DNA of 20,790 bases. Origin: a virus. The stretch spans positions 1 to 20,790 of IMG/VR virus record IMGVR_UViG_3300027881_001202. One strand, given 5' to 3'. Shown piece by piece: positions 6,483 through 18,173 of the stretch; the first letter of the stretch is position 1, and every line of letters starts with the position of its first letter. Below the pieces are notes generated by a model that was not told where the DNA came from, made no database searches, and saw nothing but the letters and a program-made list of their open reading frames with translations. Both the position numbers and the translations under genes were made by a program.

Positions 6483-6501
6483 CAAATCCACAAGATAGTG
6501 G

Positions 6502-6533
6502 AAAGCTCCTTTGTCTTGACATTGGGGCTTTTT
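6502..6533 (+). terminator. Intrinsic-terminator-like hairpin overlapping a promoter
   Basis: AAAGCTCC (6502-6509) pairs with GGGGCTTT (6524-6531), eight pairs with one G-U, followed by a short T run (6529-6533). The 14-base loop contains the -35 box of the promoter at 6516. Confidence 0.55.
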
Positions 6534-6544
6534 CTGTGTATACT
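6516..6544 (+). promoter_or_regulatory. sigma70 promoter of the five-gene motif cluster and thyA
   Basis: TTGACA (6516-6521), 17-base spacer, TATACT (6539-6544). The sequence TTGACATTG is shared with the promoters at 17808 and 19106. It should drive 6574 through at least 8780, since all those genes overlap. Confidence 0.85.
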
Positions 6545-6573: not shown

Positions 6574-6972
6574 ATGTTAGATCAAGTTCTTTCAGTATAT
6601 GTTACTGGACTAGGCTATACGTTAATAGGTAGCGTGATTATTGGATTATCGTTTGCAATTTATCGTTGGTACAAGTGTGTGCAACAATATATCGAAACAG
6701 GAAATATTGATAGTTCAGATGACAGTTGGGTCCTCATGGAAAATAACTGGTTTCACGGCAGTAGAAGTCAATATGATTTTGGAACAAATCCCTGGGTTGC
6801 AGCAGCAGACATAGTTACAGTTACAGTAATGGCTGGCATATTATCATTAGCTTGGCCTGTTACAATCATCACCACCACTGTAATTACATACGCAAGAATA
6901 GCTCGCGTAAGGTTTGCACGTAAAAAAGAATTCATGGACAGGTTACAGGGCGAGCATGTGGAAGTCGTTTAA
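6574..6972 (+). CDS. Membrane protein with C-terminal KKEFMDRLQG motif (cluster gene A)
   Basis: A 132-residue protein of unknown function. Predicted membrane helices are at about 9-31 and 78-107, with a hydrophilic, Asp/Ser/Trp-rich loop between them. The short basic tail carries R116-K-K-E-F-M-D-R-L-Q-G126, the first of five related motifs in five consecutive genes. Positive charges near residue 31 and after residue 108 would place the tail and the loop on the same, cytoplasmic side, if both helices cross the membrane. The RBS TAGGAG precedes the ATG and a strong promoter lies 29 bases further up. It may anchor a complex whose soluble members share the tail motif; that is inference. Confidence 0.8.
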   Translation: MLDQVLSVYVTGLGYTLIGSVIIGLSFAIYRWYKCVQQYIETGNIDSSDDSWVLMENNWFHGSRSQYDFGTNPWVAAADIVTVTVMAGILSLAWPVTIITTTVITYARIARVRFARKKEFMDRLQGEHVEVV

Positions 6973-7318
6973 TACTATCATACAAAAGGTCTGGCCTCCA
7001 TCACGAGAAAGAACTAAAAAGCAAGAATTCTTAGATAGACTAAAGGGTTTAACCGAAGTACAAATAAAAAATGGCACTCCTGTGGGTGTGACTTTTATGG
7101 TAACTGACGAGACCACAGGTCATGTAGATAATTATTTTCAAATAGGCCCAAGTGACTGGATTTCTTGGGGTACGTCACCAAAACCAGGTGAGTCAGTAAC
7201 ACAGCAATTTACTTCGCGAGAACTAGAAATACACTTGACTGATTTACTTCGTAAAGCGCGTCCAAATGGAAAGATTACAATGATAGATGAATCTTGTTGC
7301 ATAGTATTTGACAAATGA
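6956..7318 (+). CDS. Unknown protein with N-terminal KKQEFLDRLKG motif (cluster gene B)
   Basis: A 120-residue protein of unknown function. The motif K21-K-Q-E-F-L-D-R-L-K-G31 lies near the N-terminus, after a basic segment. The rest (40-120) alternates strands and turns and looks like a small folded domain, with TPVGVTFMVTDE, a W-I-S-W-G turn near residue 70, and a helix around TSRELEIHLTDLLRKA. The start at 6956 (AGGGCGAG upstream) gives a 17-base overlap with gene A; a start at 6914 would add a stretch that only mirrors gene A in another frame. The stop overlaps the next ATG as ATGA. It is the only member with a sizeable extra domain. Confidence 0.72.
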   Translation: MWKSFNTIIQKVWPPSRERTKKQEFLDRLKGLTEVQIKNGTPVGVTFMVTDETTGHVDNYFQIGPSDWISWGTSPKPGESVTQQFTSRELEIHLTDLLRKARPNGKITMIDESCCIVFDK

Positions 7319-7467
7319 AATACTCAAAATTCAAAAAGTTAGGACGCGGAATTACTTTGAAAATACTCAGAGATCGTATGCGCGAACACAGGCGCAGAAA
7401 GGAGTTTGTCGGACGTTTGAAACATGGCGCAGGTTGGGGCAAAACAGATGATCCAGGGCCCTACTAA
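7315..7467 (+). CDS. 50-residue basic protein with RRKEFVGRLKHG motif (cluster gene C)
   Basis: A 50-residue, strongly basic protein in an ATGA overlap with gene B and a TAATG overlap with gene D. It carries R27-R-K-E-F-V-G-R-L-K-H-G38, close to the gene D motif (both end in LKHG). The part before the motif, LKILRDRMREHRR, is likely a continuous basic helix; the tail is Gly/Asp/Pro-rich. Being sandwiched between two coupled genes and sharing the motif argues that it is translated. Function unknown. Confidence 0.72.
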   Translation: MKYSKFKKLGRGITLKILRDRMREHRRRKEFVGRLKHGAGWGKTDDPGPY

Positions 7468-7664
7468 TGTTTAAAGAGACAGTAATAGAAGTTTTCAAGA
7501 AGCACAGTATTCTTCAAAAAATGAAGGAAAAGAAAGAATCAGAGGACAGGAAAGAATTCCTCAAGCGATTGAAACATGGTCAGCCGAGAGGCAGGACAAG
7601 GCCGCCATTTAGGATAGTTCCAAGAGTTCCTCGCCAACTTGATGGCGGTGGTTTAGATGATTAA
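7467..7664 (+). CDS. 65-residue basic protein with DRKEFLKRLKHG motif (cluster gene D)
   Basis: A 65-residue basic protein that starts on the last base of gene C's stop codon. Residues 7-38 form a probable long helix ending in D27-R-K-E-F-L-K-R-L-K-H-G38, at the same residue position as in gene C. The tail (39-65) is rich in Arg and Pro and ends in GGGLDD, so it is likely unstructured. Genes C and D appear to be diverged copies of one another. No enzyme motif is seen. It overlaps gene E by 8 bases. Confidence 0.72.
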   Translation: MFKETVIEVFKKHSILQKMKEKKESEDRKEFLKRLKHGQPRGRTRPPFRIVPRVPRQLDGGGLDD

Positions 7665-7908
7665 AATGCGTAAAATGAAACAAACAGTTAAGAAGAACAA
7701 AGGACTTGAACTACGCATTAAGCGAGAAAAATTCCTACAAGAACTGAAAAATCCTACGACAAAATTACAAGAAGCAGAATCTGAGATATTAAAGAAAATT
7801 CGCAATCGACGCATGGGAAAACCAGGATCAAATCCTTATAACGCAGGTGCTGACGGCCCAATGGGTAGCTTACTGAAAAGATTACAGCGGAAAGCAGGAA
7901 TAAGATGA
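7657..7908 (+). CDS. 83-residue basic protein with KREKFLQELKN motif (cluster gene E)
   Basis: An 83-residue, Lys/Arg-rich protein carrying the most diverged motif, K22-R-E-K-F-L-Q-E-L-K-N32. A long charged helix (33-54) follows, then a Gly/Pro/Asn-rich linker and a last short basic helix (SLLKRLQRKAG). The start is either 7657, overlapping gene D, or 7666; both lack a strong ribosome binding site and fit coupled translation. The stop overlaps the thyA start as ATGA, so thyA is tied to this cluster. Function unknown; nucleic-acid or membrane-surface binding would suit the charge. Confidence 0.7.
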   Translation: MIKMRKMKQTVKKNKGLELRIKREKFLQELKNPTTKLQEAESEILKKIRNRRMGKPGSNPYNAGADGPMGSLLKRLQRKAGIR

Positions 7909-8780
7909 AAAACTATTTAGACCTATTGCAAGACATAATGGACAATGGCATTGACAAGGATGATCGAACGGGAATTGGGTCACGATCTGTTTGGGGCCGC
8001 ACATTACGTTGGGACTTGTCCGAAGGATTTCCAATCATTACGACCCGTAAAGTAGCATTTAGGATTGCGTTTGAGGAAACAATGTTCTTCTTGCGGGGTG
8101 GGCGCGACACGACAGAACTTGAGGATAAAAACATACACATATGGACAGACAACACAACAAGATCATTTCTGGACGCAAGAGGTTTAGACTGGCTGGACGA
8201 AAAGGATATAGGCTACGGTTATGGCCATCAATGGCGAAACTTCGGTGGCTACGATGCAAAGGACAGTCCCGAAGGATGGCACTACAACGGAGTAGATCAA
8301 GTGGTGCCAATGCTAGAAGCTATGAAGGAAGATCCTTTAAGCCGTCGTCATCTCATAACAGCATGGAACCCGCAGCAAATATACGGAACAGCACTTCCAC
8401 CATGTCACATTCTGCACCAGTATCAAATTACGCCAAACGGAAAACTAAACTCAAGCTTTCTCATGCGAAGCAACGATGTTCCCTTCGGTTTGCCCTACAA
8501 CATAATGGGGTATGCTCTGCTAAATCATTTGTTCGCGGAATATCTAGGTTACGAACCAGGTGAACTTGTTTATCAAGGCAACGACGTCCACATTTACAAC
8601 AACCAATTTGAAATGGTGGAAGAACAATTGCAACGCACGCCACATCCACTTCCAAAACTAAAAATAACAAAAAGCCTAAATACACTTGACGAATTGTTTG
8701 AAATGCAGTATAATAACGTATTGTTGGAGAACTATATCGCGGAGCCCGACATTAAAAACAAACCAAAAATGGCAGTATAG
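7905..8780 (+). CDS. thyA: Thymidylate synthase
   Basis: ThyA methylates dUMP to dTMP using methylene-tetrahydrofolate. The 291-residue protein has the full set of family marks: D20-R21-T-G (phosphate binding), W80 in HIWTDN, the catalytic C167 in LPPCHILHQY, R188-S-N-D191 and G-L-P-Y-N199. N199 marks a dUMP enzyme; dCMP hydroxymethylases have Asp at that position. It ends in KMAV, as bacterial ThyA ends in a short hydrophobic tail that closes the active site. It is coupled to the small gene before it by ATGA. A promoter for the next unit lies inside its 3' end (8686-8714). Together with NrdJ and FolE it fits nucleotide supply. Confidence 0.97.
   Translation: MKNYLDLLQDIMDNGIDKDDRTGIGSRSVWGRTLRWDLSEGFPIITTRKVAFRIAFEETMFFLRGGRDTTELEDKNIHIWTDNTTRSFLDARGLDWLDEKDIGYGYGHQWRNFGGYDAKDSPEGWHYNGVDQVVPMLEAMKEDPLSRRHLITAWNPQQIYGTALPPCHILHQYQITPNGKLNSSFLMRSNDVPFGLPYNIMGYALLNHLFAEYLGYEPGELVYQGNDVHIYNNQFEMVEEQLQRTPHPLPKLKITKSLNTLDELFEMQYNNVLLENYIAEPDIKNKPKMAV
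8686..8714 (+). promoter_or_regulatory. sigma70-type promoter inside thyA
   Basis: TTGACG (8686-8691), 17-base spacer, TATAAT (8709-8714), within the last quarter of thyA. It would start transcription near 8721, about 68 bases before the gene at 8789. Confidence 0.65.
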
Positions 8781-8788
8781 GAATACAC

Positions 8789-9211
8789 ATGACCGACACA
8801 ACAGAAGAACAACAAAACTTTGAAATACTAGATGAGAAAACAGTTCAAACGATGGATTACATCTTACGTGGTCTTGAACTGGGCAAATTTAACGACACAG
8901 CAAAGAAAGTGGAGTTTTTAGGTAAGTTGTCAGGTGACAAATCGCCTAAATACATAGCAACACTTTTGGGTCGTATTAAGAAACTAGAAGATGAAAATCT
9001 CGAACTTGAAGGCCAGCTTGCAAATCACAATAGTCGCATTATTGAACTGGAAAACACCAAAATTGAACTAGAAGCAAAGATCAATACTTTAGATAATGAT
9101 ATGCGTGATGTAGCAACAGCAATACGTCAACTATTTGAACCACAGCCACTCAAGCAAAACTGGGATATGAACGAGATTCAAAATTTCTGTAGTAGACGTG
9201 GATCAATATAA
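8789..9211 (+). CDS. Coiled-coil protein, paralogue of the next gene
   Basis: A 140-residue protein of unknown function. Residues 12-60 hold a helical domain starting ILDEKTVQTMDYIL; residues 62-115 form a clear heptad coiled coil (LEDENLELEGQL...IELENTKIELEAKI). The N-terminal domain aligns with that of the neighbour at 9212 (DLDEETVETFDAIL), so the two are tandem duplicates. The segment KKVEFLGKLSG (39-49) recalls the motif of the 6574-7908 cluster, but more weakly. The RBS TAGGAA is good, and it may be transcribed from the promoter inside thyA. No membrane or catalytic signature. Confidence 0.78.
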   Translation: MTDTTEEQQNFEILDEKTVQTMDYILRGLELGKFNDTAKKVEFLGKLSGDKSPKYIATLLGRIKKLEDENLELEGQLANHNSRIIELENTKIELEAKINTLDNDMRDVATAIRQLFEPQPLKQNWDMNEIQNFCSRRGSI

Positions 9212-9604
9212 ATGGATAAAATAGAAGGATTTGATTTAGACGAAGAAACAGTTGAAACATTCGACGCAATTCTTCTAGCACTGGCAAAAGATCCTGAACT
9301 AGCAGAGGAGTTTACTAAACTGAAATTCATCCAAGTGTTGAAGGATGAATTTGATGGTTCAGACGGACCGATCAAACAGATTATGCAGAAACTAGCTCAA
9401 ATTGAGCAGGGGTATAGTCATATGGTCACGGAACACGCAAAAGCACAGATGGATACGAAGCGGGCTGTAAGTGATTTGACTATGGCAACAGATGCAATAC
9501 GAGCAGCAGCAGAAGCAAAAAATAAAGAAGAAAAATACCAAGCTTTGAAGAAATTAGAAGGGGTAAAATTTCGGCAGGGCTCATATACATGGAACCAAAA
9601 ATAA
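9212..9604 (+). CDS. Coiled-coil protein, paralogue of the preceding gene
   Basis: A 130-residue acidic protein starting directly after the stop of its paralogue. Residues 8-60 repeat the same domain (DLDEETVETFDAILLALA ... LKFIQVLKDEF), with the same spacing of the LDE-TV-T-D-IL pattern. The C-terminal part (62-115) is helical and Ala-rich rather than a strict heptad coiled coil. Such pairs often form heteromers; that is inference. Its stop overlaps the folE start. Function unknown. Confidence 0.76.
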   Translation: MDKIEGFDLDEETVETFDAILLALAKDPELAEEFTKLKFIQVLKDEFDGSDGPIKQIMQKLAQIEQGYSHMVTEHAKAQMDTKRAVSDLTMATDAIRAAAEAKNKEEKYQALKKLEGVKFRQGSYTWNQK

Positions 9605-11226: not shown

Positions 11227-11721
11227 ATGTACGTATCAACTAAAAGTTACGATACACGTAACGGATTTTCTATTGCTTACAGACAATGGAAAGCTGATTC
11301 ACATTGCCGTTTTATTCACGGTTATGCACTAGGATTTGACTTTGAGTTTGAATCTGAGAAGCTTGATGTGCGTAACTGGGTTTGCGACTTTGGCGGATTT
11401 AAAACACTGAAGGCTTTTCTTGAAGAATATTTCGATCACACGCTATTGGTAGCTTCTGATGATCCTGAATTAGAATTTTTCAAGGAAATTGACAAGCGTG
11501 GGCTTGCACAAGTGCGTGAAGTAGATGCAACGGGCTGCGAAGGATTAGCAGACTTTTTATATTGGTATATGAACCAGGTTTGGCTTCCAGAAAATGGCTA
11601 CGGCGAAGAATCTGGCGTACATTGTCGCAAAGTACACGTACATGAGACGGCTGCAAACAGTGGTTGGGTTGAATTTACACGCGAGGGCTGGGCAAAACAC
11701 GTAGAAGACAATGATCTCTGA
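11227..11721 (+). CDS. QueD-like / 6-pyruvoyltetrahydropterin synthase family protein with altered zinc site
   Basis: A 164-residue member of the T-fold family that acts on dihydroneopterin triphosphate, the product of FolE. Matches to E. coli QueD: catalytic Cys C27 followed by H31-G (HCRFIHGY), DFGGFK (54-59), D70-H71 (FDHTLL), C104-E for the helix before the active site, and E140 in VHVHET. However, two of the three zinc His are replaced: the FSAAH position is FSIAY18, and HGH is HGY33. H26 next to C27 might compensate. This variant looks like a phage branch of the family. It could make 6-carboxy-tetrahydropterin for 7-deazaguanine synthesis or a different pterin. Overlaps the next gene by 11 bases. 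Confidence 0.83.
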   Translation: MYVSTKSYDTRNGFSIAYRQWKADSHCRFIHGYALGFDFEFESEKLDVRNWVCDFGGFKTLKAFLEEYFDHTLLVASDDPELEFFKEIDKRGLAQVREVDATGCEGLADFLYWYMNQVWLPENGYGEESGVHCRKVHVHETAANSGWVEFTREGWAKHVEDNDL

Positions 11722-12016
11722 GGTAGACCATAATCATCCCGATCATCCCGATAAAAAGCTGCAAAAGGCGCTAGAAAACATAAAACTTTCGCACTCGTTA
11801 GTGATTAATGGTGAAGGTGCATTAGTTATATACGTTCCTAACACAAATCAGTACCCGCCGCAAAGATGGCATAAGTATGTAGAGTCGGTTAGGGAAACAT
11901 TCGAGGCTATTTTTCCAGATATTACGATTGTAGCTAGCGAGTATAAGATGGAATTTACAACAATAACGAAAAAACAAGTATTCTCTGAAAAATTAGCAGG
12001 GAACATAAAACAATAA
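11711..12016 (+). CDS. Unknown alpha/beta protein, possible relative of the next gene
   Basis: A 101-residue protein of unknown function starting inside the end of the QueD-like gene. After a His/Asp-rich start (DHNHPDHPDKK), it shows strand (ALVIYVPN), long helix (RWHKYVESVRETFEAIF) and strands (ITIVASEYKMEF). This strand-helix-strand order, ending in a V/M-x-[VF] strand, is similar to the repeat unit of the protein encoded at 12027. The His-rich N-terminus could bind metal but lacks a known motif. No RBS stands out, in line with coupled translation. Confidence 0.68.
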   Translation: MISEVDHNHPDHPDKKLQKALENIKLSHSLVINGEGALVIYVPNTNQYPPQRWHKYVESVRETFEAIFPDITIVASEYKMEFTTITKKQVFSEKLAGNIKQ

Positions 12017-17867: not shown

Positions 17868-18173
17868 ATGAGTTTTACAGACGTACAAGAAAAAGTAGAT
17901 GAAGAACTAGATTTGAAGCGTCCAAACATGTGGCGTGTCATTTTTCATAATGATAACAAGACGACAATGGAATTTGTTATCCTCTTGTTATTGCGCGTAT
18001 TTCACAAATCTGAGCAAGAAGCAACGGATATTATGCTTCATGTACACGAAAAGGGACAGGCAATTGTAGGCGTGTACACACACGAAATTGCCGAAAACAA
18101 AATGGAAATTTGCATAAACACAGCAAAAGAATATGAGTTTCCATTGCGTGTTACAATCGAAGAAGAAATCTAA
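17868..18173 (+). CDS. clpS: ClpS, N-end rule adaptor for ClpAP
   Basis: A 101-residue homologue of ClpS (E. coli 106), which delivers proteins with destabilising N-termini to the ClpA unfoldase. The pattern N28-D29-N30-K-T32-T-M34-E-F-V37 matches N34-D35-D36-x-T38-x-M40-E-F-V43 of E. coli. H60 in IMLHVHEKG matches H66, and E73-x-x-E76-x-K78 matches the ClpA-contact E79/E82/K84. The only pocket change I see is D36 to N30. It should therefore bind N-degrons and dock on host ClpA. ClpS does not serve ClpX, so it complements rather than partners the ClpX at 13372. Own promoter; no clpA in the window. Confidence 0.94.
   Translation: MSFTDVQEKVDEELDLKRPNMWRVIFHNDNKTTMEFVILLLLRVFHKSEQEATDIMLHVHEKGQAIVGVYTHEIAENKMEICINTAKEYEFPLRVTIEEEI

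Follow-up and report, generated by a model that had tools for sequence, protein, structure and literature searches.

What does it mean when five small, overlapping genes in front of a phage thymidylate synthase gene encode proteins that are otherwise unlike each other and still share one 11-residue peptide? The question arises from the 20.8-kb IMG/VR record analyzed here, a genome fragment that we refer to in its entirety as the window, in which these genes (A to E) occupy positions 6574-7908. The window features the gene order NT5C-like nucleotidase, SleB-type hydrolase, thyA, gene F, folE, ClpX, bS21, Hsp20 and ClpS. Because this order resembles that of blocks in the Pseudomonas phages Deifobo/PA5oct and in Salicola phage SCTP-2, the uncultivated phage of the window belongs among the jumbo phages, its lineage having PA5oct and SCTP-2 as relatives. 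In PA5oct and Deifobo (Arenbergviridae) the similarity concerns the thyA-folE block, including an F orthologue, gp232, with the peptide EKENIMDKLKG and a small membrane protein, gp234, just before thyA, while in SCTP-2 it concerns the ClpX-bS21-ClpS block. These blocks differ from the window in that they lack B-E and in that a clear motif is missing from the membrane protein. Two further features of the window may be mentioned here. Positions 215-1975 encode a B12-dependent ribonucleotide reductase, where the closest annotated relatives have class I enzymes, and the gene for a phage bS21 (14546-14848; PF01165, TIGR00030) adjoins that for the phage ClpX and is followed by those for Hsp20 and ClpS.

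The gene block upstream of thyA

Relatives were obtained via a thyA profile only, yielding 40 loci. When homologues of A, B and D were sought directly in viral contigs, and those of A and B also in phage records, nothing usable turned up, and a profile made from the motif alone returned 154 unconfirmed candidates. Among the recovered loci there is only one close relative, L011, the thyA of which is 84% identical to that of the window. It contains the entire A-E block with the motif in each gene, and the motif is kept in F as well. A search with B and its L011 orthologue found L011 alone again.

Table 1. Features of the thyA island and related elements in the window
Feature	Position	Strand	Remarks
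Hairpin overlapping promoter	about 6500-6533	+	-35 box in loop
Sigma-70-like promoter, TTGACA-17-TATACT	6516-6544	+	Near-consensus, 11/12 positions
Gene A	6574-6972	+	Membrane protein with YIETG loop; motif forms C-terminal tail
Motif in A, RKKEFMDRLQG	6919-6951	+	Profile match
Gene B	6956-7318	+	Soluble; N-terminal amphipathic stretch, then motif, then domain without fold assignment
Motif in B, KKQEFLDRLKG	7016-7048	+	Profile match
Gene C (50 aa)	7315-7467	+	L011 orthologue 70% identical
Motif in C, RRKEFVGRLKH	7393-7425	+	Profile match
Gene D (65 aa)	7467-7664	+	L011 orthologue 52% identical, with E-like motif form
Motif in D, DRKEFLKRLKH	7545-7577	+	Profile match
Gene E (83 aa)	7657-7908	+	Stop overlaps thyA start; L011 orthologue 59% identical
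Motif in E, KREKFLQELKN	7720-7752	+	Profile match
thyA, thymidylate synthase	7905-8780	+	PF00303, E 3e-82; anchor of the island
Gene F	8789-9211	+	Coiled-coil protein between thyA and folE; motif helix in N-terminal hairpin
Motif in F, KKVEFLGKLSG	8903-8935	+	17.2 bits with a profile not trained on F
Gene G	9212-9604	+	Degenerate motif TKLKFIQVLKD; F-G alignment by eye and MAFFT only
Seventh, weaker copy, KKQVFSEKLAG	11969-12001	+	C-terminus of gene 11711-12016

The reading frames overlap by 17 (A/B), 4 (B/C), 1 (C/D), 8 (D/E) and 4 nt (E/thyA). Gene B most likely starts with the ATG at 6956 and not with the mechanically assigned TTG at 6914, because this is where the L011 orthologue begins. 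All five genes are real and under purifying selection where this is measurable: dN/dS against L011 amounts to 0.17 for A, 0.18 for B and 0.16 for E, while for C and D, which show an excess of third-position changes, dS is saturated and the ratio is therefore not measurable. The promoter lies 29 nt before gene A. Since it precedes A and is kept in L011, it is probable that A-E and thyA form a single transcription unit starting from the promoter at 6516. Around 6598-6640 of L011 the same promoter and hairpin are present, the stem featuring two compensatory pairs between both sequences. This terminator-like hairpin with the -35 box in its loop represents a compact terminator-promoter junction conserved in two phages.

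Comparison of A-E with Pfam and PHROGs gave no convincing family match, and PADLOC (A-E) and NCBIfam (A, B and E) provided weak matches or none. The first 13 residues of B are amphipathic with a hydrophobic moment of 0.62, and the protein may thus touch the membrane by itself. An AlphaFold2 (AF2) model of B reached a pLDDT of 49.7 and was therefore left out of the fold search; the folded domain that the original prediction ascribed to B is accordingly unproven.

A peptide shared beyond chance

All five peptides were found within the block exactly as originally quoted, and they follow the common consensus [KR][KR]x[EK]F[LMV]x[RE]L[KQ] within the 11-residue peptide. The best common ungapped 11-mer of A-E has a sum-of-pairs score of 294, as compared to 91±11 (maximum 131) for 100 residue shuffles, which places it 18 SD above the shuffles. 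As a small control, groups of five neighboring small genes were taken from other phages; the best 11-mers of these eight real sets reached at most 123. The comparison with shuffled and unrelated sequences, which had been named as a possible refutation, thus came out in favor of the motif. A profile built from the five copies assigns 25-31 bits to each of them and, applied to all six frames of the window, gives 17.2 bits at 8903 in gene F and about 11 bits or less elsewhere. A match at 2038 (RAMKLLGKLKN) was disregarded since it lies in another frame over the gene at 1977-2300. As originally stated, the shared residues are mostly encoded by different codons, with identical ones at 0/6 positions for A/C and 3/8 for C/D. 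A sequence pattern common to A-E beyond chance is therefore present in proteins that are otherwise unlike. As a correction to the differing layouts originally noted, the motif of B-E starts at a similar place in all four proteins, between residues 21 and 27.

Identities between A-E and their counterparts in L011 range from 52 to 70%. Of the 11 motif columns, L011 keeps 10 in A, 8 in B, 6 in C, 3 in D and 9 in E, so that the motif is better conserved than the rest of the protein in A, B and E and not in C and D. The motif of D reads DRKEFLKRLKHG in the window, where it resembles that of neighboring C, and AKRKFLMELQEP in L011, where it resembles that of neighboring E; only 3/11 residues are kept while the pattern KRKFLMELQ survives.

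Membrane proteins bearing the peptide ahead of thyA

Gene A encodes a protein with predicted membrane spans, a [YF][VI].TG loop (YIETG) after the first span, a location upstream of thyA and a motif tail. Proteins of this A-type were found upstream of thyA in L011, L014, L021 and L042, their alignment being shallow and divergent. A profile of A and its L011 orthologue retrieved those of L021 (1.2e-6) and L014 (1.8e-6) and, weakly, those of L042.

The richest arrangement is that of L042 (IMGVR 3300034417_000033), where six small membrane proteins are encoded in tandem directly upstream of thyA and all six end with the peptide (KLLAEKLAG, VLIDGLKGDGRAAH, RFVERLRGEEG, KFINRLTGK, AFVEKLKGE and ALVQKLQGE). 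Their bodies are unlike: for five of them, identity to one another's reference is 14-32%. The array resembles gene A of the window in its A-type layout, position and peptide tail and, in most copies, in a YV.TG loop ([YFH][VI].[TS]G in 5/6 proteins, compared to YIETG in A). It differs from the window in that six membrane copies are present and soluble B-E are not. Directly after thyA, at 8849-9115, L042 encodes another small membrane protein, which bears the peptide N-terminally (RTEKDRVLAKLQG); both ends of membrane proteins can thus accommodate the motif.

Single membrane carriers are present in L014 (tail RKDNFINALKG) and L015 (tail KRMEFVSKLSG). The two A-type membrane genes of L021 have tails without the motif, the two membrane proteins of L029 show a poor match at most, and the match is also poor for the Deifobo/PA5oct protein in the position of A, which ends with RTFNKLKK in Deifobo. 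Relatives that keep the genes and lack the motif had been named as an argument against the original prediction. This is in part what we found, namely in the L021 tails, the Deifobo/PA5oct protein and D of L011.

The coiled-coil protein between thyA and folE

Gene F encodes a protein that exhibits all features of a family found in about 20 related phages: location between thyA and folE, a hairpin motif, a coiled coil and a conserved C-terminus. In most of these phages the protein encoded there is about 107 residues long and consists of a helical hairpin at the N-terminus, followed by a coiled coil and a tail that commonly ends with KHGIY or similar; F of the window ends with SRRGSI, a divergent form of the latter. 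Most members contain [IVF][VLA]x[RK]LxG in the equivalent position, with the second helix of the hairpin ending in ESEQIVARLKG, EAEKIVQRLKG, EKEEIVGKLKG, the Deifobo form given above, RKVEFVDNLKG (L014) or KKVEFLGKLSG (window). The last of these had been considered a possible weak sixth copy. The copy is indeed present, and it is the most widely kept one. In an AF2 model based on 18 sequences, F forms helices at residues 16-30, 34-48 (containing the motif), 55-116 and 127-137, with a mean pLDDT of 75.5 and 63-68 for the hairpin. Foldseek of F against viral models gave no match at E 0.001, and family libraries returned coiled-coil matches only. Sequence searches of the PDB yielded coiled-coil or chance matches only.

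Gene G resembles F (LDEETVETFDAIL against LDEKTVQTMDYIL) and is possibly a divergent paralogue of it, although a G profile did not find F significantly. The seventh copy of the peptide (Table 1) has the form GKQVFSQKLAG in L011.

Profile comparisons across phages

When the profile trained on A-E was applied to the coding strand of other phages, seven matches of at least 14 bits fell near thyA and three elsewhere (p=3e-4), several of the matches being orthologues so that these cross tests are not fully independent. With lower thresholds p changes to 0.0016 at 13 bits, 0.003 at 12 bits and 0.08 at 11 bits; at 12 bits, four of the eight matches near thyA are F orthologues. In the reverse direction, a profile of the membrane tails from L042, L014 and L015 had its six best places in the window in A, B, the tail of 11711-12016 (17.8 bits), C, F and E, with a background of 3.5 matches of at least 13 bits per million residues. 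This reverse test is partly circular because two of the six L042 tails, like those of L014 and L015, were first noticed through the window profile.

A profile of F alone gave 10.7 bits for B, 5.8 for A, 1.6 for C, -5.3 for D and 1.0 for E and supported some of the L042 tails. As only B scores well, F is connected to A-E mostly by position and a shared core, and this link is weaker than that between the membrane tails and A-E. Loosely similar hhxKLKY elements are found in other small-gene arrays of L042, and because such look-alikes are common there we do not claim a genome-wide spread of the motif in this phage. On the L042 contig (G001), locus L056 (360-2370) encodes about six tandem paralogous small proteins that are unrelated to the thyA island; they share a TGYxPWEY motif and, at the N-terminus, an hhxKRLKY element. 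Locus L057, at about 20.8-26 kb, encodes several proteins that end with [EN]ED.I[FL]LKLKY and another small set that begins with MSEDD[FV][FV]R[KR]L.

What the shared peptide may do

A real protein-level motif is thus kept throughout a five-gene block and recurs around thyA in other phages. We tentatively favor the explanation that it quite possibly serves as a short helical docking peptide through which phage proteins, both membrane-bound and soluble, come together at a single partner, docking to a common partner being what we infer from the sharing of the motif. Recurrence on membrane and soluble proteins of the same thyA island is the pattern expected from such a peptide, and the docking originally proposed gains further from the conservation in L011. 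It is weakened by the A-type tails of L021 that have no motif, the poor match in Deifobo/PA5oct and the 3/11 residues kept by D of L011. The carriers would comprise the A-type proteins, which are small, have about three membrane spans and bear the peptide on a presumably cytoplasmic tail, then F, with the peptide in helix two of its N-terminal hairpin, and, in the lineage of the window, the small soluble proteins B-E. All of them would offer one face made up of F/I, L/V, L and R/K at +3 from F, often with a final G, and membrane-bound and soluble carriers would gather at, or compete for, the single partner. The helical state is modeled for F and, with low confidence, for B, and would apply to the other members of A-E. 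ThyA, F itself, an enzyme of the folate pathway or a host protein may be considered as partner candidates on the basis of position. As tails and F recur in other phages, they are probably the old carriers, while B-E are probably lineage-specific recruits.

The main rival is that partial tandem duplication around the tail of A left the motif as the best-kept paralogous piece without any common partner today. This is plausible, though on the whole somewhat unlikely, and it is compatible with docking since the two are not mutually exclusive. Weak profile links centered on the motif chain neighboring genes (C to D 0.0056, D to L011 E 0.0083) and, together with the tandem array into which the same locus is expanded in L042, render such a duplication plausible; the similar place of the motif in B-E points in the same direction. 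On the other hand, the codons of the motif have diverged while the residues stayed and hardly anything else is common, and the peptide is also present in two proteins of other layout, F and the product of 11711-12016, where it is terminal. It is quite unlikely that the motif helices instead bind each other or the hairpin of F, such that A-E would be assembly partners of F and not competitors. The motif of F does form one half of a predicted helical hairpin ahead of a long coiled coil, and F co-occurs with A or B-E in the window, L011 and L014, but most phages with F are devoid of A-E and of a recognizable motif-bearing membrane protein, and the confidence for the hairpin is limited to the pLDDT of 63-68.

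A generic basic helix with affinity for RNA, the ribosome or the inner surface of the membrane would fit the Lys/Arg-rich copies in A-E, the amphipathic N-terminus of B and the presence of a bS21 gene in the same phage. We regard it as very unlikely, given fixed F, E, R and L positions that go beyond composition and F copies in relatives that are acidic to neutral (ESEQIVARLKG). The hydrophobic moment of the motif, about 0.3, is ordinary and a little lower than the median for shuffled versions of the motif, which makes a surface-active helix unlikely and led us to reject a membrane-surface helix as the main reading. A degradation or adaptor signal for the phage ClpX (13372-14586) or ClpS (17868-18173) appears highly improbable: both genes are nearby, as in SCTP-2 and PA5oct, yet proximity is weak evidence, most carriers have the motif in an internal position and it resembles no Clp signal that we know of. 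Chance likeness of Lys/Glu/Leu-rich helices could be invoked because other parts of such genomes contain elements of loose similarity; with the shuffle, real-gene and cross-phage tests all standing against it, it is extremely improbable.

Relation to known systems and implications

Docking peptides common to several proteins of the same virus are well known from eukaryotic viruses; to our knowledge they have hardly been described in phages, and our literature searches found no description of such a motif. With eukaryotic-style short linear motifs the peptide shares its shortness, a degenerate consensus, carrier proteins that are unlike and varied positions. In contrast to these, it resides in a phage island, often forms a tail beside membrane spans and may have spread by local gene duplication. 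The capsid-targeting sequence of phage T4 occupies the N-terminus and is subject to cleavage by the prohead protease, and its carrier is packaged in the head. It likewise is a short peptide on otherwise different small phage proteins, which in T4 directs them to one place. The peptide described here differs from it in being internal or C-terminal, with an N-terminal location found neither in A-E nor in F, and in having one carrier class that is membrane-embedded. The T4 sequence on internal head proteins is covered in PMC3012670.

Going further, the peptide could constitute a recruitment code by which membrane arrays and soluble carriers build, or gate, a membrane-associated thymidylate/folate assembly, with carriers added or diversified by local gene expansion, an extension of the docking explanation that we consider unlikely. 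Recruitment as such is open to experiment because F has orthologues in the cultivated Pseudomonas phages PA5oct, Deifobo and Paride. If the motif does recruit both kinds of carrier, membrane and soluble, to a single partner, it would provide a handle on the roles of many uncharacterized small genes of jumbo phages.
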